Source: Methanobrevibacter sp. (lineage in GTDB: Archaea; Methanobacteriota; Methanobacteria; Methanobacteriales; Methanobacteriaceae). Taken from it: 64,000 nt of DNA. The DNA lies in NCBI GenBank assembly GCA_024689425.1, contig JAILDN010000033.1, positions 1 through 64,000 on the forward strand, in the 5' to 3' direction. The notes beneath the pieces were generated by a model. That model had not been told where the DNA came from. It saw only the letters and a list, made by a program, of their open reading frames with translations, and did not search any database. The position numbers and the translations under genes were made by a program. Of this stretch, positions 22,091 through 64,000 are shown piece by piece. Within the stretch, counting starts at the first letter, position 1, and every line of letters begins with the position of its first letter.

Positions 22091-23740
22091 ATGAAAAGTG
22101 ATAATATTAAAAAAGGAATTCAACGAGCTCCCCACAGGTCTTTATTGAGAGCTTGCGGATTAGGTGACGATGATTTTGAAAAGCCGTTCATCGGAATAGC
22201 AAACAGTTTTACTGATATTGTTCCCGGCCACATCCACCTCAGAGATCTTGTTGAATTTGTAAAAGAAGGTATCATAGCTGCCGGAGGTGTCCCTTTCGAA
22301 TTTGACACAATGGCAATCTGTGATGGAATCAGTATGAATCACGAAGGAATGAAATATTCACTCCCTTCAAGAGAAATAATAGCTGCAACGGTTGAAAGCA
22401 TGACAAAAGGACATGCTTTTGACGGGTTGGTATTAATTCCTAGCTGTGATAAAGTCGTTCCGGGTATGATTATGGGTGCTTGCCGCGTAAATATCCCAAG
22501 TATTGTTGTTACTGGCGGACCAATGGCAGCGGGAAATTACAAAGGAAAAAATGCTGATTTAATTACTGTCTTTGAAGCCGTTGGAGAATACTCCGCCGGA
22601 AAAATTCCAGAAGAGGAAGTTTATGAAATGGAGAAATGTGCTTGTCCGGGTCCTGGAAGCTGCTCCGGATTATTTACGGCAAACACAATGGCCTGTATTT
22701 CTGAAACATTAGGTTTATCTCTTCCATTATGCGCAACAACCCATGCCAATACCGAAGAAAACAATAAAATGGCTTATGAAAGTGGAAAACAAATTATCGA
22801 ATTAGTTAAAAACGATATAAAACCATCTGATATTTTAACACAGAACTCATTCAATAACGCTATTGCAATAGACATGGCCTTAGGTGGTTCATCAAACACT
22901 GCACTTCACATTCCTGCAATCGCAAGTGAAGTAGAAGGCATCTCTGTTGATTTAGAATTATTTGACAAAATCAGCCGTGAAATTCCACATATTACATTAA
23001 TTTCACCTGCAGGTGAAGATACGATGATGGACTTGCACTTGGCTGGAGGAATTCCTGCAGTTTTAAAAACATTGGAAAATAAAATTGACACTACTCCACT
23101 TACAGTAACGGGCAAAACAATCGAAGAAAACCTTAAAGATGTTGAAAATAAAAATACTGACGTTATTCACACATTGGATAATCCATATCATGAAGATGGT
23201 GGAATAGCTATTTTAAAAGGTAATATTGCTCCAAACGGCAGTGTAGTTAAAAAAGGTGCAGTTGCAGAGGAACTAATGCATCTTAAAGGACCTGCCAAGG
23301 TATATCATTCCGAAGAAGAAGTGACAAAAGCTATATTCAATCATGAAATTGAAGAAAGGGATATTGTCGTGATTATCTATGAAGGTCCAAAAGGCGGTCC
23401 TGGAATGAGAGAAATGTTAAATGCCACTTCAGCATTAGCAGGAATGGGAATTAAAGATGTCGGCCTTATAACTGACGGAAGATTCTCCGGAGGAACTCGT
23501 GGCCCATGTATAGGACATGTTTCACCTGAAGCAATGGCATCCGGACCAATTGTGGCCGTTAAAAATGGAGACATTATTGAAATTGACATTAAAAACAGAT
23601 CCATTAATGTGGAACTGACCGATGAAGAAATAGCTGAAAGATTAAAATCTGTAAAACATCCGAAAAGTGATGTTGATGGTTGGTTAAGCATTTATCAAAA
23701 ATTAGTTCAGTCTGCAGACAGTGGAGCTATTTTAAGGTAG
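22091..23740 (+). CDS. ilvD: Dihydroxy-acid dehydratase
   Basis: [36 protein letters not shown]. Confidence 0.97.
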
Positions 23741-39602: not shown

Positions 39603-40160
39603 TTATAGATTGTCAAATAATTTCCAAATATCAGGATATTTTTTTGATACGGCTTCATCTATAAGAATAGATGCTTCCCTACTGATACTGAATTCCGGCT
39701 CAGTTTTCCTTAAATATCTAAATACGGCAGCAGATCTGGATGACCACAAGGTTATTCTTGGATTTTTATCTACAATATCTAAAACTTCAGCTACATTCTC
39801 CTGTTTCTTAATTTCTTGTGTATCAGATAAGTCTTCTTCATAATCATGATTGCTAGGTAAATCTTCGGATGTTTGAGTATCTTGCGTGTCATTCGTTTGT
39901 ATTTCATTATCGGATGCTTCTTCCTCTTCTTTTTGAACTTCAATATCTTCTTCAACATTTTCATCAACTACACTAGAATCACTAGTATCATCTACACTAG
40001 ATTCACTGTCTACCTTATCGGAAGTAGAATCAGTCTGTAAAGAATCTTGATTATCTTCTTTTAACATGTCTTCTAAAGATTGAGCACCATTACTATCAAA
40101 ATCCTCATCATAATAATCAGGAATTAAAGAATCTAACCCTTTTCCAAGACCGCCTGGCAT
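39603..40160 (-). CDS. ParA-partner protein with ParB-like N-terminal motif
   Basis: MPGGLGKGLDSLIP start, acidic D/E/S-rich linker, ~60-aa helical C-terminal domain; 33 bp downstream of parA. Confidence 0.6.
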   Translation of the reverse strand: MPGGLGKGLDSLIPDYYDEDFDSNGAQSLEDMLKEDNQDSLQTDSTSDKVDSESSVDDTSDSSVVDENVEEDIEVQKEEEEASDNEIQTNDTQDTQTSEDLPSNHDYEEDLSDTQEIKKQENVAEVLDIVDKNPRITLWSSRSAAVFRYLRKTEPEFSISREASILIDEAVSKKYPDIWKLFDNL

Positions 40161-40193: not shown

Positions 40194-41024
40194 TTAAATT
40201 TTTTGTATACCTCTACTATTTATATTAATTTCACTCATAGAAACCTTATTGTTCTGTTCATCTCTTTCTAATATTTCTTTTGCCAATTTTAAATACGCAT
40301 TAGTTCCAGTACTTTCTGGATCATAAATCAAACAAGGTTTTCCAAAACTAGGTGCTTCTGCTAAACGTATGTTCCTAGGAATAATTGTTTTAAAGAGTAA
40401 ATTTGTTCCACCGAAGTAGCTTTTCAATTCTTTATGGACATCTTTACTTAACCTAGTTCTCTTATCATACAAAGTAAGCAAAATTCCCTTAATTGGGGTA
40501 GGGCTCCTGAGTCTTTTTTCAACAAGTTTGATAGTATTTATCAAATCAGCAACACCTTCAAGTGCATAATATTCCGCTTGAATCGGTATCAATACACTAT
40601 CTGAGGCCACTAATGCATTTACGGTGAGAACACCTAATGAAGGAGGTAAATCGATGAATATGTAATCAAAAAGTGGAATAACGTCTTTAAGAGTGTCTTT
40701 CAATATAATATGATAATTTTCTTTTTGACTTAACTCTACACCCGCTCCACTCAATGAGATATTGCTTGGGACAATGAATAAATTTTTTATAAAAGTTGGG
40801 ATAGTTGCTTTTTTAACATTGATATCCCCTATAATTGCATCATAAATTGTGTTTTGCAATTCGTTTTTATCGATTCCAAAACTTGTTGTTGCATTAGCCT
40901 GAGGATCCATATCGACAACTAAAACAGATTTTCCCATGACCGCTAGAGAAGTTGCAGTGTTTACAACAGTTGTTGTTTTTCCACAACCTCCTTTTTGATT
41001 CATTACGGCTATTACTTCACTCAT
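40194..41024 (-). CDS. parA: ParA/Soj family chromosome partition ATPase
   Basis: NQKGGCGKTTTVVNTATSLAVMGKSVLVVDMDPQANATTSFG; IFIDLPPSLGVLTVNAL. Confidence 0.95.
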   Translation of the reverse strand: MSEVIAVMNQKGGCGKTTTVVNTATSLAVMGKSVLVVDMDPQANATTSFGIDKNELQNTIYDAIIGDINVKKATIPTFIKNLFIVPSNISLSGAGVELSQKENYHIILKDTLKDVIPLFDYIFIDLPPSLGVLTVNALVASDSVLIPIQAEYYALEGVADLINTIKLVEKRLRSPTPIKGILLTLYDKRTRLSKDVHKELKSYFGGTNLLFKTIIPRNIRLAEAPSFGKPCLIYDPESTGTNAYLKLAKEILERDEQNNKVSMSEININSRGIQKI

Positions 41025-41050
41025 TAAATAATTCTCCTGATAAGTCTGAA

Positions 41051-41512
41051 CTTTAAGTTAAAAGGGTTATAAATAACCCTCTAACTTAAATGAGATAAAT
41101 TATAAGTTAACATGAATAAGTTAAAGTTTAAGTTAAAAGGTCTAACAGTAGATGTTAAACCTTAAAACTTATTGAGATAAATTATAAGTTAACATGATAA
41201 GTTAAAAGAAATACCTTAATACTTGTAAATTATCGCCTAAAACTTCTAAGTGAGCGGGTAAAACTTACAATTGATAAGTTAAACCCCCAAACTTAAAAGT
41301 GATAAATTTTAAGTTAGCATGAATAAGTTACAAGAGATAACTTTTAACATTTAAGTTATTATAAATAAGTTAAAAGATTTAAGTTTTAACTATTAAGTTA
41401 TATTTTATAACTTCAACCTTATAAAGTATTTGTTTTCACAGATAAGTTATTAGTTATAAGTGATAAGAAATAAGTTATTATTAGTTATAAGTGATAAGTT
41501 ATAAGTAAAAAA
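41051..41512. repeat. Iteron-like repeat array upstream of parA (candidate centromere/operator)
   Basis: About 16 TAAGTT plus 4 AACTTA hexamers; three ~43-bp units at 41083, 41166, 41290; TTAGTTATAAGTGATAAG at 41450 and 41481. Confidence 0.8.
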
Positions 41513-41527
41513 AAGAAAAAAAATAAA

Positions 41528-41544
41528 AGAGTGAAAATCACTCT
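41528..41544 (-). terminator. Hairpin terminator of trpB2
   Basis: AGAGTGA-TTT-TCACTCT followed on minus strand by TTTATTTTTTTTTC. Confidence 0.6.
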
Positions 41545-42844
41545 ATTTTGCATTTTGCATTGTACCTTCAAAGTAGGAAGCGTATCCTTTCAAGTCAAGC
41601 ATTCCATGGCCTGAGAAATTAAGTACAATGGTTTTTTCCTCACCAGTCTCTTTGCATTTCAATGCTTCATCAATGGCAACCCTAATTGCATGAGTAGTTT
41701 CAGGTGCTGGAACAATTCCTTCATTACGAGCAAAAGTAACACCAGCTTCGAAAACATCCTTTTGATGAACAGCTCTAGGTGAAATGTAACCTTCTTTGGT
41801 TAAAAGAGAAACAATTGGAGACATTCCATGATATCTTAATCCTCCAGCGTGTACAGTAGGAGCAACAAAGTCGTGACCTAAGGTAAACATCTTAAGCATA
41901 GGAGTAAATCCATTTATGTCACCGAAGTCGTAATCATAAGTACCTTCAGTCAAGGTAGGACATGCACTAGGTTCAACAGCAATGAATTCAGTGTCTGAAT
42001 TTCCATCAATCTTATCCTTGATGAATGGGAATAAAGATCCGGCCAAATTACTGCCTCCACCAGCACAAGCAATCATGACATCAGGTTCTTCTTCAGCCTT
42101 TTCAAGTTGAACCTTTAATTCCTGACCGATAATGGTTTGATGTAACATTACATGGTTTAAAACACTACCTAAGGAATATTTGACTTCATCATTGAGTAAA
42201 GCTTCTTCCATAGCTTCTGAAATTGCAACACCTAAAGATCCAGGATGTTCGGGATTTTCTTTTAAGATTTGACGTCCGATTTCAGTATTTTCACTAGGTG
42301 AAGCGAAGACTTGACTATCATAGATGCTCATGATATTTTTCCTGTCAGGTTTTTGGTTAAATGAAACCTTAACCATATAAACAGTACAGTCCAAATCAAG
42401 TAAATTACATGCTAAAGATAAAGCAGTACCCCATTGGCCTGCTCCGGTTTCAGTAGTTAACCTTTCAACACCTTCTTTTTTAGCAAAATAAGCTTGAGGA
42501 ATAGCTGAATTCAATTTGTGTGATCCGGTGGGAGAAGTATCTTCTCTTTTGTAGTAAATTTTAGCAGGAGTATTTAAAAATTTTTCAAGCCTTGTAGCTC
42601 TAAATAAAGGGGAAGGTCTTCCCATTTGCATATATAATTCTCTAACTTCATTAGGGATAGAAATATATCTGTCAGAAGCAAATTCTTGAGCTAAAGCAGA
42701 TTTTGTAAATGCTTTTTCTAAATCTGCAATCTGATTTTTTCCCTCACTATTTTTTGGCTCCGGGAGTGCTTCAGGCAAATCTGCAAGAATATTATACCAT
42801 TTTTTTGGCACTTCATCGGAATCTAAAGTAATCTTATAATTCAT
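41543..42844 (-). CDS. trpB2: TrpB2-type tryptophan synthase beta-like protein
   Basis: [25 protein letters not shown]; start chosen at MNYKITLDS. Confidence 0.93.
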
Positions 42845-42881
42845 GATAATAGTTATAATTGATGTACTATTTAAAGCTTTG

Positions 42882-48235: not shown

Positions 48236-48285
48236 GATAATAAGTATTAAAAAATTAAGTATTAAAGGTTATTCATTTAACAAAT

Positions 48286-48335
48286 AATTATAAGTTATAA
48301 GTGATAAGTATCAAAAACTTATAAGTTATAAGTAA
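48286..48335. repeat. Satellite copy of the parA-upstream iteron
   Basis: AGTTATAAGTGATAAG at 48293-48308 identical to 41452 and 41483; also ACTTATAAGTTATAAGTAAAT. Confidence 0.65.
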
Positions 48336-48414
48336 ATAATCCGGCTTAAAAAAAACCAAGTTATATAAATATTAAAAAATAAATCTATATTTATTATATT
48401 TATTAGGTGTTTTA

Positions 48415-51585: not shown

Positions 51586-52010
51586 TGGCTCTTAATCTAA
51601 GTCCAGAGCAAGGAGTCAAACTTACAAAAAAAGATAGGGCTCACGTTTTAGCAAAAATGCGCCAGGGATGGAAAGCGAACTGTTTGATTCCTGACTATGT
51701 ATTTGATGAAAACGGAGATATCCAAATAGGATCTCCAAAAAACCGTCGTGTAGTAAAAATTGTAAAAATCTTAGATGATGGAATTCATGTTGAAAATGCA
51801 CTTAAAAACAAAACATTGAGGGTTCCATGGGATAAAATTTCAATAGTGGAACCTACAAAAGAAGTGCGTGACGGTTTAAAAGTGGGAATGTATGACGGCA
51901 AATACATTGTATTCGGCATCTATAACTCTTATAAAATACAGCAAAATACCCAATTCATAATTAACTACATTCAAAACAAAAAAATGGATAATACTAACAT
52001 GTACAGTTAG
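51585..52010 (+). CDS. Conserved-looking hypothetical protein, translationally coupled to upstream gene
   Basis: 1-bp overlap with upstream stop; no recognised domain. Confidence 0.6.
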   Translation: MALNLSPEQGVKLTKKDRAHVLAKMRQGWKANCLIPDYVFDENGDIQIGSPKNRRVVKIVKILDDGIHVENALKNKTLRVPWDKISIVEPTKEVRDGLKVGMYDGKYIVFGIYNSYKIQQNTQFIINYIQNKKMDNTNMYS

Positions 52011-52693
52011 TATTCTTCTAAATATTTGTTTATGATGTCTTCGCCTCTAAGCAAGACTAATCCGTTTTCTTCAGCATATTTACGAGCATCGGCAATTGAT
52101 GTTGCTTGACCGGTTTCACCATCCATCATTTCGCAAACAACACAAACCGGAGTAACGCCTGCCATTTCACATAATGCAAGACCAATTTCAGTGTGTCCTC
52201 TCCTGTTTTTAACAAGCCCATCTGCTCCTCTTAAAAGACAAACGTGACCAGGTGATCTGAAAGTTGCACCAAATTCATCAAATCTTTCATCTTTCATCAT
52301 TTTAGCCATTTCACTAATGGTCATTGCTCTGTCATGGTCTGTAACACCTGTAAAAGATTTTCTATGGTTTGTCCATATGGAAAATGAAGATCTCTCATCA
52401 TAAGGAATATCGGTAGGTGCTAGTTTAGCTAATTCAGGAAATTTTTCGGTTGCCGCTTCCATAATATCCACCATGAACGGCAAATGAATAGCGTCACAGA
52501 AATCTGCATGTAAACAGTTACAGATTAAACCTCCGGCATCATTTCTCATGGTAGCTATTGATTTTGGAGTAACGAATTCGGAAGCTATAATCATGTCAAC
52601 TTCCCCTTCCCTATCATCATCATCAAAAACTAAAACGAATTCACCATTTTTAATAGCTTCTAAAGCTTTATCTAAATTTGTTTCTTGATTCAT
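52007..52693 (-). CDS. ribB: 3,4-dihydroxy-2-butanone 4-phosphate synthase
   Basis: FDDDDREGEVDMIIASEFVTP; RRGHTEIGLALCEMAG. Confidence 0.96.
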   Translation of the reverse strand: MNQETNLDKALEAIKNGEFVLVFDDDDREGEVDMIIASEFVTPKSIATMRNDAGGLICNCLHADFCDAIHLPFMVDIMEAATEKFPELAKLAPTDIPYDERSSFSIWTNHRKSFTGVTDHDRAMTISEMAKMMKDERFDEFGATFRSPGHVCLLRGADGLVKNRRGHTEIGLALCEMAGVTPVCVVCEMMDGETGQATSIADARKYAEENGLVLLRGEDIINKYLEEY

Positions 52694-52741
52694 AGTAATG
52701 TCTCCTTGTGTACTAGAACCAGGGCTAAAAAATAATCTACT

Positions 52742-52866
52742 TATTCTCTTCCATCCGGACTATACCGTCGGTTTTGGAATCTCACCAAATCAACACTTTC
52801 GTGCTCGTGGACTTATTTTATTAAAATCACCACCGGTGGGGAATTGCACCCCGCCCTGAGAACGTA
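52742..52866 (-). ncRNA. FMN riboswitch (RFN element)
   Basis: Minus strand TTCTCAGGGCGGGGTGCAATTCCCCACCGGTGGTGATTT...CCACGAGC...GATTTGGTGAGATTCCAAAACCGACGGTATAGTCCGGATGGAAGAGAA. Confidence 0.95.
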
Positions 52867-52905
52867 TAAAAAAATTTATCAGTTATTATATAAAATATTT
52901 TTGAT

Positions 52906-58108: not shown

Positions 58109-59036
58109 AATTTTTAAATTAAAAAACATCATTTCAATTAAAGATTTTGAAAGATTAGACATTGACTATATATTGGAAGAAGCATCAAAATTAGAGAATA
58201 TTGCTCAATCAAAAGAAGTTTCAGAAGAATTAAAAGGAAAAATATTAGGATTAATGTTTTTTGAACCGTCTACAAGGACAAAATTGTCATTTGAAACTTC
58301 CATGAAACGTTTAAGCGGACAATGCATCGGCTTTGAAAACACCGGTTCTTCAAGTGTATCTAAAGGTGAAAGCATTGCCGATACCGCGAAAATGTTTGAA
58401 GGATACAGTGATGCTTTGGTAATTAGACATGAATTGGAAGGAGTATCAAAATTCATTTCCGATATAGTGGATATCCCTGTCATTAATGCAGGCGACGGAT
58501 CAAGTCAACACCCAACCCAAACACTACTCGATTTATACACAATTAAAAAAGAACTCGGCTCAATCGACAACTTAAAAATAGCATTGATAGGAGATTTGAA
58601 ATTTGGACGTACAGTACACTCCCTAGCCAATGCATTAGGATTATACGAAAATGTAGAACTATACTTTGTTGCACCGAATGAACTGAAAATGCCGCAAGAG
58701 GTTCTTCATGATTTGGATGAAATGAACATGTCTTATACAGAAGTTTCAAAAATCGAAGAGGTTATTGACAAAGTAAACGTCTTATATGTTACCAGAATTC
58801 AAAAAGAGCGTTTTGCTGACATTGAAGACTATCTACAAATAAAAGGTGCTTATAAAATAAATAAAAAAATGTTAGAAGGTAAGGATTTAATTGTAATGCA
58901 TCCTTTACCTAGAATCGATGAAATCGATGGTGATGTTGATAATACGAAATACAACAAGTATTTCACCCAAGCAGCAAATGCTGTACCTGTGAGAATGGCA
59001 ATATTGAAAACATTAATAAAAAACAACCCTAAATAG
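58101..59036 (+). CDS. pyrB: Aspartate carbamoyltransferase catalytic subunit (TTG start)
   Basis: [36 protein letters not shown]. Confidence 0.96.
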
Positions 59037-60183
59037 ATGAAAATAAACTTGATTCAAGTAAATCCTCATCACATTGCAATTTAATAATGTTGGTTCTGCC
59101 CTTTCCACGTCCACGTGAAATAGTATTTGTTGAAATAATACCAAGCATTTCAAGCTCGTTGATAAAGTCAAAGATTCTTCTGTAAGTTACGGCATCTTTT
59201 TTAGAAACTTCAGTATATGCTTCATATAATTTTCCAGAAGTAATTTCTTCTTTTTCATTTGTTAAGTTTAAAATAGCTTCAAGTACTCTTTGCTGTTGTG
59301 TAGGAAGTGTTTTTACAACATCAACAAATTTATCATGTTCTATTCTATCTTTAGCCATTCTTACATGTTCACTTTTAATAGTTTCAGTGCCTTCTTCTTC
59401 AGCTATAAATCCAGAAGTTTTTAACAAGTCAAGAGCAAACCTTGCATCCCCTTCCTCTTTAGCAGCCATTGCGGAACACAATGGGATAACATCCTTTTCA
59501 ACAACGTTTTCCTTGAAAGCCAATTTAGCCCTATCATTTAAAATATCCGTTAACTGATCTGCACCATAAGGAGGGAAAACAATTTCCTTATCATTCAAAC
59601 TACTGGTAACCCTAGACTTAATTAATCCTTTAAAGTCAAGGAAATTACTAATTGATAAAATTGAAACATTGTCCGTTCTAGTTAATGTGTATAAAATTCC
59701 GTCCCCATCTTTATTAAGCAATATATCAATTTCGTCTAAAATAACAATTAAAATGAGTTTTTTTCCAAAAGCATTAGTTCTGAAAATATCACGGAATGTA
59801 TTGACAACTTCCGCTTTGGTCCATCCCCTATGAGGAACATCACGGCCAAGTTTTTGACATAATTGAGCTAGAACCTGATATTCTGTTGTATAATCGGTAC
59901 ATCTAATATATTCAATTTTAATAAAGACGTCCTGGTCTGCTGAATACTCTAAAAGTTGTGAACGAGCAAATTTTGCAGCCGCAGTTTTTCCTGTTCCAGT
60001 TTTACCGTAAATTGTAATGTTTGATGGTGTAACATCATTTAATGCATCAACCCAATATCTTGCAATTTGTGTAACTTGATCCTCCCTGTGTAATAACTTA
60101 TCTGGTAAAAACCTATGATCTAGTGGTTTTTTATCCTTAAATATTAAATTTTCTTTCTGAATATTTTCGAAAATATTGCCCAT
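59029..60183 (-). CDS. cdc6: ORC1-type DNA replication initiator (Cdc6/Orc1)
   Basis: [44 protein letters not shown]; winged helix. Confidence 0.96.
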
Positions 60184-60230
60184 TTTCTCACCTATAAAAA
60201 TTATAAAAAATAGAAAAATAACATAAGTAT

Positions 60231-60494
60231 GATTTCCAGTGTTAATATATAAACAAGCTCTTAAATAAAGTTTTTCATTGTAAAATTGATATGATATTAA
60301 AATATTACCTAAAATTGAAAAAATAAAAACTGATAAAAATCAATTAAAATTAAAATAATAAACTAAAAAGTAATATTATTATAAACATGAAATGAATATT
60401 TATTTATTTTAAATTTAAAAGAATATAATCAAATTAAAAAAATAAATATGTGGAGTAGCATTTCAAATAAAAGGGTAGTATTTCAAATGTAAAA
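60231..60494 (-). promoter_or_regulatory. ORB-like elements upstream of cdc6
   Basis: Minus strand TTAACACTGGAAATC (60231-60245), TTTTACATTTGAAATAC (60478-60494), degenerate TTTTATTTGAAATGC (60458-60472). Confidence 0.4.
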
Positions 60495-60509
60495 ATTATA
60501 TGATAATCA

Positions 60510-63500
60510 TCATTTGATGACTATCGTATTTGCCTCATTTAAAAATGAATATGTCGTGGTAATTATATATTTTCCAGACTGAAGATTAATGTTCAAATAG
60601 GCAATACCATTGGACTGCGTTGTTCTAATATAAAAGACACCATTAATGTTAAATGTTACCTCAACACCACTCAACGGATTGCCGTTATTATTATCTAAAA
60701 TTAATGCGCCAAACTTAGAACCATCCCTATAATTCATTACAAGATTGGATGTTTTAATAGTGCTTAAAACCTTAACGTTGTTTGATACTCTATATCCGCC
60801 GTATTCTGCTGTAATTATATAATCATCCGGTTGTAAATTAATGTTTAATGAAGCGACACCGTTTTCATTAGAAGTCCTATAATAGAAAACACCATTAATG
60901 TTAAAGGATACGACAACGCCACTCAATGGATTACCTTGGTCATCTAAAACCTTTACGGAATATTTAGAAGTGTTTCTATAATATTTCACTAAATCCTTAT
61001 TTTCAACCAATTTAGGAAGAACTGTAATAAGGACACTTGCCATTTCATCAGTTTCCGGATTTATAACCGTTAAAATATATTTATCAGGATTCAAATTAAT
61101 ATTTAAACGAACAAATCCTGATGAATTTGTAGTACGATAGTATAATACCCCATTAATATTCATCGCAACGCTTTTTTCTATAACCGGTTTTCCTTCAAAA
61201 TCAACAATTTTGGCAACAAATTGAGAAGCATTTTTATAATATTTAACTAAACTATTTGCAATAACTGTGGATTTAATTGTTACTGTAACGTTTTTAAATG
61301 ATGACGCATACTTATTATCCCCATTAAATCTGATTAAAATAGAATAAGTATTTGAATTTAAATTTAAAGGCATTGAAGATGATCCATCAATTTTTGTAGT
61401 TCGAGTATATGTAACACCGTTTAAAGTAATAAATACCGTTTTATTTGATAGCGGATTATTCTTAAAATCTGTTAAGACGAAATAAAGTCTCGTTCCATCA
61501 TGATAATACATGTCAACATCGTTTGAATTTATTGAAGTAGAGACACGATCAATAACGAATGAATCCTTTATAATCAAATTATTATAATTGGTCTTACTGA
61601 ATTTAGCTTCAATAAGATAATTTCCAAAATCTAAATTATCCAAATCCAATATTGCTTCGCCATTAACCATTTTTAAATAATATAACTTTGAATTTACACT
61701 GACATTTAGGGTAGTGTCTATTTTATCCACGGATTTAAAGATTAAAGAAACATTATTTATGTTTTTAACAATATTTAAACTCAAATCAATATTTTTAGGA
61801 TTAACATTAAATTTGGTGGTATTCATGATTAAATTATAATTGTTATTTCCATTAAATACAATGATTGATGTGTATTTTGATGTATTAAGTAAAACTGGTA
61901 ACTTTTGAACAGAATTGGATTTAACAGTATAATCAACACCATTAATATTCAAAACACATTCCTCATTCAACTTATCACCATTCAAACCAACCAAAGAAAC
62001 ACTAACAACCAAATCATCACCATAAACAGCATCTTCGATATTCAAAGACAAATTAGGTGTAATCTTATTTACTTTGAAAGTATCCTTGGCATTTACGGAA
62101 TTATAATTATTATTTCCATTAAAGTAAACAAATGCAGTATAAGTAGAAGCATTAAGTAAAACAGGAAGCTTATTTAAAGAATTAGATTTAATATTATAAT
62201 TTACGTTATTAATACTTAAAACGATATTTTCATTTAATAATTTATTGTTTGAATCCATTAAAGTAGTATTAACAACCAAATATTCTCCAAAATTAATATT
62301 AGAAATATTTAAAGATAATGATGGTGTAGCTTTATTAACGCGAACTTTTAAATTAGAAGTAGCACCATTATAATTATTAGAACCTTTATAAATTAATTTA
62401 AAATCATGACTTCCCACATCAAAAATAGAATCCAAAACAGTTTCGGAATTTGAATCAATTATTTGAGATTTAGATCCGAAAACCAGGGTTAATTTATCAT
62501 TAATGAGTGAATTGGATGAATCGATAAGGGAATTTTTAATTACAAAATATTGTCCGTACATAATATCAGAAATATCTAAAGTCAAATCAACGTTTGCCTT
62601 GGAAACAGTGAAATTACAGGAAACATTACTGGAAATATGATTGATAGTCTCTTCTAAATAAAGATAAGCTGTGTAATTAGAAGCACTTAGCTTATTGTGA
62701 ATTACAAAAGGAACATTAGGTCCAATATCATATGTTCCAACACCCTTAATTGACAATTTAAGGTTATCATTACAATTTAAAAAGGTATTGACGATTAAAT
62801 CTTCACCATAAACTATACTAGGAATATTCATGGATAAAGCAGGGATGACTTTATTAACTGTGAATGTAGTTTTATTATCACACGGATTGTAATTTGTACT
62901 TCCCTTAAAGTAAACGAAAGCAGTGTAAGTATAAGCATTTAATGGAATAGATAAGTTATTAATACGATTAGATTTAACAGGATAATCAACACCATTAATA
63001 TTCAAAACACAATCATAATTTAATAATTTACCGTCTAAATCAACCAAGGAAACATTTACAAGTAAATTTTCACCATAAACAATATCCTTAATATTCAAAG
63101 ATACTCTGGAATCGGCTTTACTAACAGTTAAACTTGAATTAGAAACCGTGTATCTATGTGTTTCATCACCTTCAAAAATTAGATAAGCAATATAGTTACC
63201 TGCATCAATTAAATCTGTTATAGTTTGAATTGAATTTGATGTTATGCTATAGGTTTTATTTCCAATTTTCAAAAGTAACTCAGCATTGATAATATCTCCA
63301 TCAGTAGTTTTTAATGTGTTTTCAACAATTAATTTGCCACCATAACTAATATTTGATATATTGAATGATAAATTCGTATCATGTTGAATAAAAACTAATT
63401 TAGAAGAATTTGAAGAGGAATAAAACATATCTCCAATAAATATTGCTGTGATATTATGAATACCAAATCCTAAATCTAAATTTGATAAAACAACTTTACC

Positions 63501-64000
63501 ATTAGTTAAATTAAAGTTTTGGGTACTACCATCAATTTTTAAAATTATAGAACCATTAATATAATTATTACACTGATCTAAAACACTTACATTTAAATTA
63601 AGGGTTTTATTATCATTTAATGAATAATCCAATAAAATATTTGTTGGATATGGAATAATTGCGAAAGCCTTAATACAGGCCACTGAAGAAGAATAAGAGT
63701 GTCCTCTGCTTTCTAACACTAAAGTATAATTATATAAATCAAACCATTCATCACCATCATAACTAACGAATGAAACATTAGGATAATAATGGGTTCTTGT
63801 AGCATAAACTTTTTCAGAAATAGGAACCCAAGCTTCAGTAGACGTTTCAATTTTTAAAAGTATTTCAAAAGTATCTCCTTTTGATAGCGGAATAAATGAA
63901 TCTAAATTAAACGTGAAATAACCTGTTGGAGCCGTTCCATTTTGAATTGCTTTTAGTTCATTATTCACTCGAATTTCTGCTGTCCAATTACTGTCTGTAT
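60510..64000 (-). CDS. Adhesin-like surface protein with tandem Ig-like repeats (5' end beyond window)
   Basis: Reading frame open to window edge (TDSNWTAEIRVNNELK); many ~90-aa Ig-like repeats, Asn/Ser rich. Confidence 0.8.
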   Translation of the reverse strand, partial: TDSNWTAEIRVNNELKAIQNGTAPTGYFTFNLDSFIPLSKGDTFEILLKIETSTEAWVPISEKVYATRTHYYPNVSFVSYDGDEWFDLYNYTLVLESRGHSYSSSVACIKAFAIIPYPTNILLDYSLNDNKTLNLNVSVLDQCNNYINGSIILKIDGSTQNFNLTNGKVVLSNLDLGFGIHNITAIFIGDMFYSSSNSSKLVFIQHDTNLSFNISNISYGGKLIVENTLKTTDGDIINAELLLKIGNKTYSITSNSIQTITDLIDAGNYIAYLIFEGDETHRYTVSNSSLTVSKADSRVSLNIKDIVYGENLLVNVSLVDLDGKLLNYDCVLNINGVDYPVKSNRINNLSIPLNAYTYTAFVYFKGSTNYNPCDNKTTFTVNKVIPALSMNIPSIVYGEDLIVNTFLNCNDNLKLSIKGVGTYDIGPNVPFVIHNKLSASNYTAYLYLEETINHISSNVSCNFTVSKANVDLTLDISDIMYGQYFVIKNSLIDSSNSLINDKLTLVFGSKSQIIDSNSETVLDSIFDVGSHDFKLIYKGSNNYNGATSNLKVRVNKATPSLSLNISNINFGEYLVVNTTLMDSNNKLLNENIVLSINNVNYNIKSNSLNKLPVLLNASTYTAFVYFNGNNNYNSVNAKDTFKVNKITPNLSLNIEDAVYGDDLVVSVSLVGLNGDKLNEECVLNINGVDYTVKSNSVQKLPVLLNTSKYTSIIVFNGNNNYNLIMNTTKFNVNPKNIDLSLNIVKNINNVSLIFKSVDKIDTTLNVSVNSKLYYLKMVNGEAILDLDNLDFGNYLIEAKFSKTNYNNLIIKDSFVIDRVSTSINSNDVDMYYHDGTRLYFVLTDFKNNPLSNKTVFITLNGVTYTRTTKIDGSSSMPLNLNSNTYSILIRFNGDNKYASSFKNVTVTIKSTVIANSLVKYYKNASQFVAKIVDFEGKPVIEKSVAMNINGVLYYRTTNSSGFVRLNINLNPDKYILTVINPETDEMASVLITVLPKLVENKDLVKYYRNTSKYSVKVLDDQGNPLSGVVVSFNINGVFYYRTSNENGVASLNINLQPDDYIITAEYGGYRVSNNVKVLSTIKTSNLVMNYRDGSKFGALILDNNNGNPLSGVEVTFNINGVFYIRTTQSNGIAYLNINLQSGKYIITTTYSFLNEANTIVIK

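Follow-up and report, generated by a model that had tools for sequence, protein, structure and literature searches.

What kind of element is the dense block of short repeats that lies upstream of a ParA-type ATPase gene in this Methanobrevibacter contig? An earlier note on the 64,000-nucleotide stretch of DNA analyzed here (the window) described it as a bidirectional iteron array composed of ~43-bp units. The whole array is contained in a single intergenic gap (Table 1) and adjoins a SegA/SegB gene pair, 18 kb from an Orc1/Cdc6 gene. On the sequence evidence, the most probable reading, to which we assign a likelihood of about three in four, is that a chromosomal SegAB partition system has in this array its SegB-binding centromere, the analog of parS, and probably its autoregulatory operator too.

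Table 1. Coordinates of the repeat array and of neighboring features in the window; blocks A to D are from a scan for heptads
Feature	Position	Strand	Description
segB	39603..40160	-	185 aa; N-terminal GLGKGLDSLIP, acidic linker, C-terminal SegB ribbon-helix-helix domain
segA	40194..41024	-	ParA/Soj-type Walker ATPase, 276 aa; Pfam AAA_31, E=1.8e-62
Array gap	41025-41542		518 bp, between segA and TrpB-like gene
Heptad block A	41054..41123		Single 7-bp register
Heptad block B	41129..41191		Short, shifted register (41129, 41165, 41178, 41185)
Heptad block C	41198..41477		40 consecutive slots in an unbroken 7-bp register
Heptad block D	41481..41508		Four contiguous heptads, TTAGTTA TAAGTGA TAAGTTA TAAGTAA
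TrpB-like gene	41543-42847	-	Flanks the array gap on the side away from segA
Runner-up gap	48236-48414		Second to the array gap in the lattice comparison
Second, smaller heptad cluster	48291..48335		TAAGTTA TAAGTGA ... AAACTTA TAAGTTA TAAGTAA; 7 kb towards orc1
ribB-type DHBP synthase gene	52007-52693	-	Downstream of FMN riboswitch
FMN riboswitch	52739-52867	-	RF00050, 118.7 bits
orc1/cdc6	59029..60183	-	Replication initiator; TIGR02928, 3.4e-119; Pfam Cdc6_C, Cdc6_lid
Gap adjoining orc1	60184-60509		No heptads
AT-rich ORF	60510-63968	-	1152 aa, GTG start; adjoins orc1

The elementary unit of the array is not the ~43-bp repeat but a heptad, TAASTTA, a 7-bp pseudo-palindrome centered on G or C that is arranged head to tail on a 7-bp lattice. 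All of the longer units proposed earlier are present, the three of ~43-49 bp (at 41075, 41157 and 41282) being 76-88% alike, and TTAGTTATAAGTGATAAG is found as an exact pair, at 41450 and 41481. Both the longer units and this 31-bp-spaced pair are secondary features, pieces of the 7-bp lattice. The period is strict, with autocorrelation against dinucleotide shuffles giving z values of 4.1-7.9 at lags of 7, 14, 21, 28, 35, 42, 49 and 56, while all remaining lags in the gap have z ≤3. Thirty-two positions match TAASTTA at 6 or more of 7 nucleotides and fall into four register blocks. In block A, TAAGTTA at 41054 is followed by TAACTTA AATGAGA TAAATTA TAAGTTA ACATGAA TAAGTTA at 41082-41123, and in block C the mean match to the consensus is 5.25/7, compared with 1.9-2.3 in the six other registers. 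The bidirectional character that had been attributed to the repeats carries little weight, since TAASTTA is self-complementary except at its central G/C and, of the 18 AAGTTA cores, 15 share one orientation.

Both the host genome and the heptad are AT-rich, which could suggest low-complexity DNA or a functionless mutational tandem expansion; we give this explanation hardly any credence. TAAGTTA or TAACTTA occurs 16 times in the 518-bp gap, against a maximum of 4 and a mean of 1.1 in 300 dinucleotide shuffles, which bears out the earlier view that the repeats exceed what AT-richness would produce, and every 518-bp stretch of the window outside the array holds at most two. The composite pattern TAASTTA-N7-TAASTTA (≤1 mismatch) has 15 matches in the 64 kb, where 0.22 are expected, and all 15 are inside the array. 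Nor is a comparable repeat density, which would have made the array unremarkable, seen in other intergenic regions: the mean z over lags 7-28 is 5.4 in the array gap and ranges from -0.7 to 1.1 in the 20 control gaps, and, of the 21 intergenic regions in the window that are 150 bp or longer, the array gap alone has the lattice. Together with the retention of place and consensus across many species, and of exact heptad pairs upstream of segA even in genomes of 50% GC, the absence of the lattice from shuffles and control gaps refutes the low-complexity reading for the segA-proximal copies.

The genes beside the array indicate what might bind it. The closest solved relatives of SegA in a PDB search are bacterial ParA/Soj proteins (down to 5.6e-72). 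The segB product has no family match in Pfam or NCBIfam; a phmmer search matches it to Sulfolobus SegB (7duv, 7dv2; 1.6e-6), and with a profile built from 47 SegB orthologs the match to the same protein reaches 1.1e-12 over the ribbon-helix-helix region. In alignments, the NPRITLWS strand of this domain is almost invariant in the order and has the Sulfolobus counterpart DPKIGVWS. A model of full-length SegB (pLDDT 60) was uninformative in a fold search, and with a model of the C-terminal domain (pLDDT 80) the top PDB match in Foldseek was SegB, a weak one (E=0.42, Z about 3) obtained with a monomer, in which the dimeric ribbon cannot appear. Because the structural matches are weak, the ribbon-helix-helix assignment rests on homology in sequence, by which the segB product is a SegB homolog of this family. 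At its other end, the protein carries a peptide (MPGGLGKGLDSLIP) nearly alike to that of the bacterial ParB proteins retrieved in the same search (MAKKLGLGKGLSALIP), conforming to the ParA-binding pattern GLGKGL.ALIP of bacterial ParB; residues L5, G6 and G8 are invariant among the 47 aligned SegB proteins. The N-terminal region of bacterial ParB binds ParA and activates its ATPase (PMC12462528).

Comparison of orthologous regions, proposed earlier as a check, reveals the same lattice upstream of segA throughout the Methanobrevibacter group, where almost every gap has 7 as its best period. These 63 gaps have a median length of 450 bp and a median of 25 heptads (range 5-41). In Methanovirga (L090, L092, L098) the lattice is weak. 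Members of the Methanobacteriales that are more distantly related lack the long lattice and retain 2-4 contiguous heptads, mostly 40-120 bp upstream of segA. A heptad pair matching at 12 or more of 14 positions is found in 34 of the 35 testable regions outside the genus and is exact in 24, including the 50%-GC genomes of Methanothermobacter type. A closed genome from another family (G144, L217) encodes both SegA and SegB and has no TAASTTA heptads upstream of segA; its site may differ in sequence or may be displaced. Upstream of segA in a member of the Thermococcales (L110) there are scattered TAACTTA, TAAGTTC and TAACTTT and no lattice.

The segA gene lies 17.5-23.5 kb from the main orc1 in all 10 Methanobrevibacter genomes examined, and orc1/cdc6 likely marks the origin region. 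Repeats that are direct, AT-rich and close to a replication initiator gene could be taken for Orc1/Cdc6 origin boxes, or for a plasmid-type iteron or unwinding element. We regard this as very improbable. The gap adjoining orc1 is devoid of heptads, known Methanothermobacter origin boxes probably differ from the heptads in sequence, and a 7-bp lattice suits tandem ribbon-helix-helix dimers; moreover, the lattice follows segA rather than orc1, also in a genome (G136) where the two genes are ~300 kb apart. A plasmid iteron or plasmid origin is rejected because of the chromosomal gene context (purD, orc1/cdc6, amidase, OTCase), and no plasmid Rep gene occurs among the flanking genes examined. Of the original description, the parA connection and the proposed noncoding, protein-binding nature of the repeats stand and the iteron label does not, a partition array (centromere/operator) being the better reading. 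Two further features of the neighborhood may be recorded: the ORF that adjoins orc1 is very AT-rich, and an Rfam scan of the window returned as its sole match an FMN riboswitch upstream of a ribB-type gene, away from the array (Table 1). FMN riboswitches are mainly bacterial.

Heptads also recur away from segAB. The second cluster in the window has a syntenic counterpart beside the same HAD-hydrolase gene in nine other genomes, and in Methanobrevibacter genomes such extra clusters occupy a conserved place 5-11 kb from the array; three (G011, G029 and G033) have no second cluster. In five of 10 genomes (G010, G015, G036, G053 and G055) the syntenic cluster is flanked by convergent 3′ ends, and in G054 by tandem genes; it occurs on either side of the HAD-hydrolase gene, depending on the species. 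All genome-wide heptad counts are based on pattern searches. Four closed Methanobrevibacter genomes together yield 25 triple-heptad matches at ≤2 mismatches, of which 23 are no more than 12 kb from segA. In closed genomes of Methanothermobacter type, the heptad pairs group into 4-5 clusters no farther than 50 kb from segA, and the rest of each genome holds one isolated match or none (binomial p of 1e-5 to 9e-4 per genome); these clusters are in corresponding places between species, nearly all intergenic, and on the segA side of orc1. The five clusters of G146 are at about 1,286,879, 1,294,872, 1,317,957, 1,337,245 and 1,362,090. G136 has one heptad pair by orc1 and further clusters with segA.

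These distant clusters bear on whether the array is solely an operator. Autorepression of operons is common among ribbon-helix-helix partition proteins. The array stands directly upstream of segA, where it overlaps the promoter region, and the proximal end of block A is separated from the start codon by 30 bp. An operator role alone, in which SegB represses segAB transcription from a long autoregulatory site that has no centromere function, could explain this copy. Such a restricted role is nonetheless unlikely: hundreds of base pairs and about 25 heptads exceed what an operator needs, and the clusters recur far from segAB and are concentrated towards the origin. As several lie between convergent genes, with no promoter, they are not just operators, and a promoter operator would not explain a cluster that can be situated on either side of the HAD-hydrolase gene. 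Counting against the centromere reading are the three genomes that lack a second cluster, the heptad-free segA upstream region of G144, the ~300-kb separation of segA and orc1 in G136, and the weak fold match.

Less certain heptad-like sequences were also observed. Three Methanobrevibacter genomes have several heptad-like triplets spread over ~350 bp inside a single conserved ORF that lies 7-12 kb from segA on the side away from the origin (L236, L237 and L238, about 1690-2350). Possibly these are intragenic SegB sites such as those of Sulfolobus; since AT-rich coding DNA can mimic heptads, these third clusters are left without assignment as sites. In addition, a lone conserved triple heptad, TAAGTTTTAACTTATAACTTA, lies between tandem genes far from segAB in three genomes (G000 C6:5919, L239; G009 C6:17269, L240; G123 C1:51777, L241).

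The centromere reading invites comparison with partition systems already described. Like SegAB of Sulfolobales, this locus has a ParA-type ATPase gene followed by a gene for a homologous ribbon-helix-helix SegB, with sites upstream of segA that are clustered near an origin and share a 7-bp palindromic core with a central G/C. The Sulfolobus SegB consensus, TCTAGASTCTAGA, has AGASTCT as its core, a 7-bp palindrome centered on S (PMC12284271), in contrast to TAASTTA here, and it has no match in the window at ≤2 mismatches. The archaeal systems differ also in that the sites of Sulfolobales are single 13-bp elements (S1/S2 and dispersed TCTAGASTCTAGA) rather than a long continuous array, and in that the present SegB bears a ParB-like N-terminal peptide, its ATPase is closest in the PDB to bacterial Soj/ParA, and segA and segB are non-overlapping, with a 33-bp gap. 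The SegB consensus is lineage-specific (PMC12284271), and the Sulfolobus version does not define the SegAB family.

A second parallel is parS of plasmid pSM19035, the site of the δ/ω system, in which several arrays of contiguous 7-bp repeats upstream of partition genes are bound by a ribbon-helix-helix protein. Such sites are recognized by four or more contiguous 7-bp repeats upstream of partition genes, and the present array contains these. It differs in belonging to an archaeal chromosome and a SegB-family partner rather than to a plasmid and ω, in offering up to 40 in-register slots rather than 7-10 repeats, and in its consensus (TAASTTA versus WATCACW). With bacterial ParABS (Soj/Spo0J-parS) the locus shares a Soj-like ATPase, a ParB-like N-terminal peptide on the partner, and the placement of multiple sites towards the chromosomal origin; unlike ParB, the partner has no CTPase/HTH domain match in Pfam or NCBIfam. 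Canonical parS (TGTTTCACGTGAAACA) has one two-mismatch match in the window, at 23518 and 17 kb away, which is at chance level, and a bacterial parS at this locus is rejected.

How SegB would use such an array is suggested by precedent. The ω protein of pSM19035 binds contiguous WATCACW heptads, at least four of which are needed for full ParA activation (PMC9499535), and in crystals Sulfolobus SegB wraps DNA as a left-handed, ω-like superhelix (PMC9178275). On the basis of the ω pitch, the SegB superhelix and the 7-bp SegB core, we propose that each TAASTTA heptad would serve as the recognition site of one SegB ribbon-helix-helix dimer, with the pseudo-dyad on the central G/C; a 7-bp pitch is what tandem dimers of this kind need. 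Neighboring dimers would be spaced 7 bp apart and would join into an unbroken helical filament, up to ~40 heptads long, of the kind that ω forms on its parS. The many N-terminal peptides thereby displayed would bind nucleoid-bound SegA and stimulate its ATPase, and the combined action of the two proteins would move the newly replicated origin region. The smaller clusters across the flanking tens of kilobases would serve as auxiliary parS-like sites. The sequences establish the lattice with its conservation, its linkage to the origin and its copies away from promoters, as well as the homology of SegB; SegB binding, filament formation, SegA activation and segregation are all inferred steps of this scheme.

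We are evenly divided over a more specific proposal, that this is a long euryarchaeal single-register centromere in which a single uninterrupted superhelical filament of SegB is templated by about 40 7-bp sites that are in phase. Such an array would have grown in the Methanobrevibacter group from an ancestral site of 2-4 heptads, and its SegB would be a chimera that joins an archaeal ribbon-helix-helix domain to the ParA-activating peptide of bacterial ParB, with a ParA of bacterial type as its partner.

The location and nature of archaeal centromeres have been listed as an open question (PMC5120986), and we found no prior description of this array in the open-licence literature. A 2025 study of SegB that included a single euryarchaeon detected no site near its segAB genes and proposed that a quite different sequence exists there (PMC12284271). 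For the whole order Methanobacteriales, including genomes of M. thermautotrophicus type, the heptads supply a concrete candidate sequence together with a 7-bp lattice and a map across the genome, and the natural array makes an ω-like SegB superhelix directly testable. The results suggest that a 7-bp dimer pitch is common to archaeal SegB and the ω protein of bacterial plasmids. Judging from its sequence, the array conserved near the origin across Methanobacteriales is very probably the site at which SegB grips the chromosome to separate its copies.
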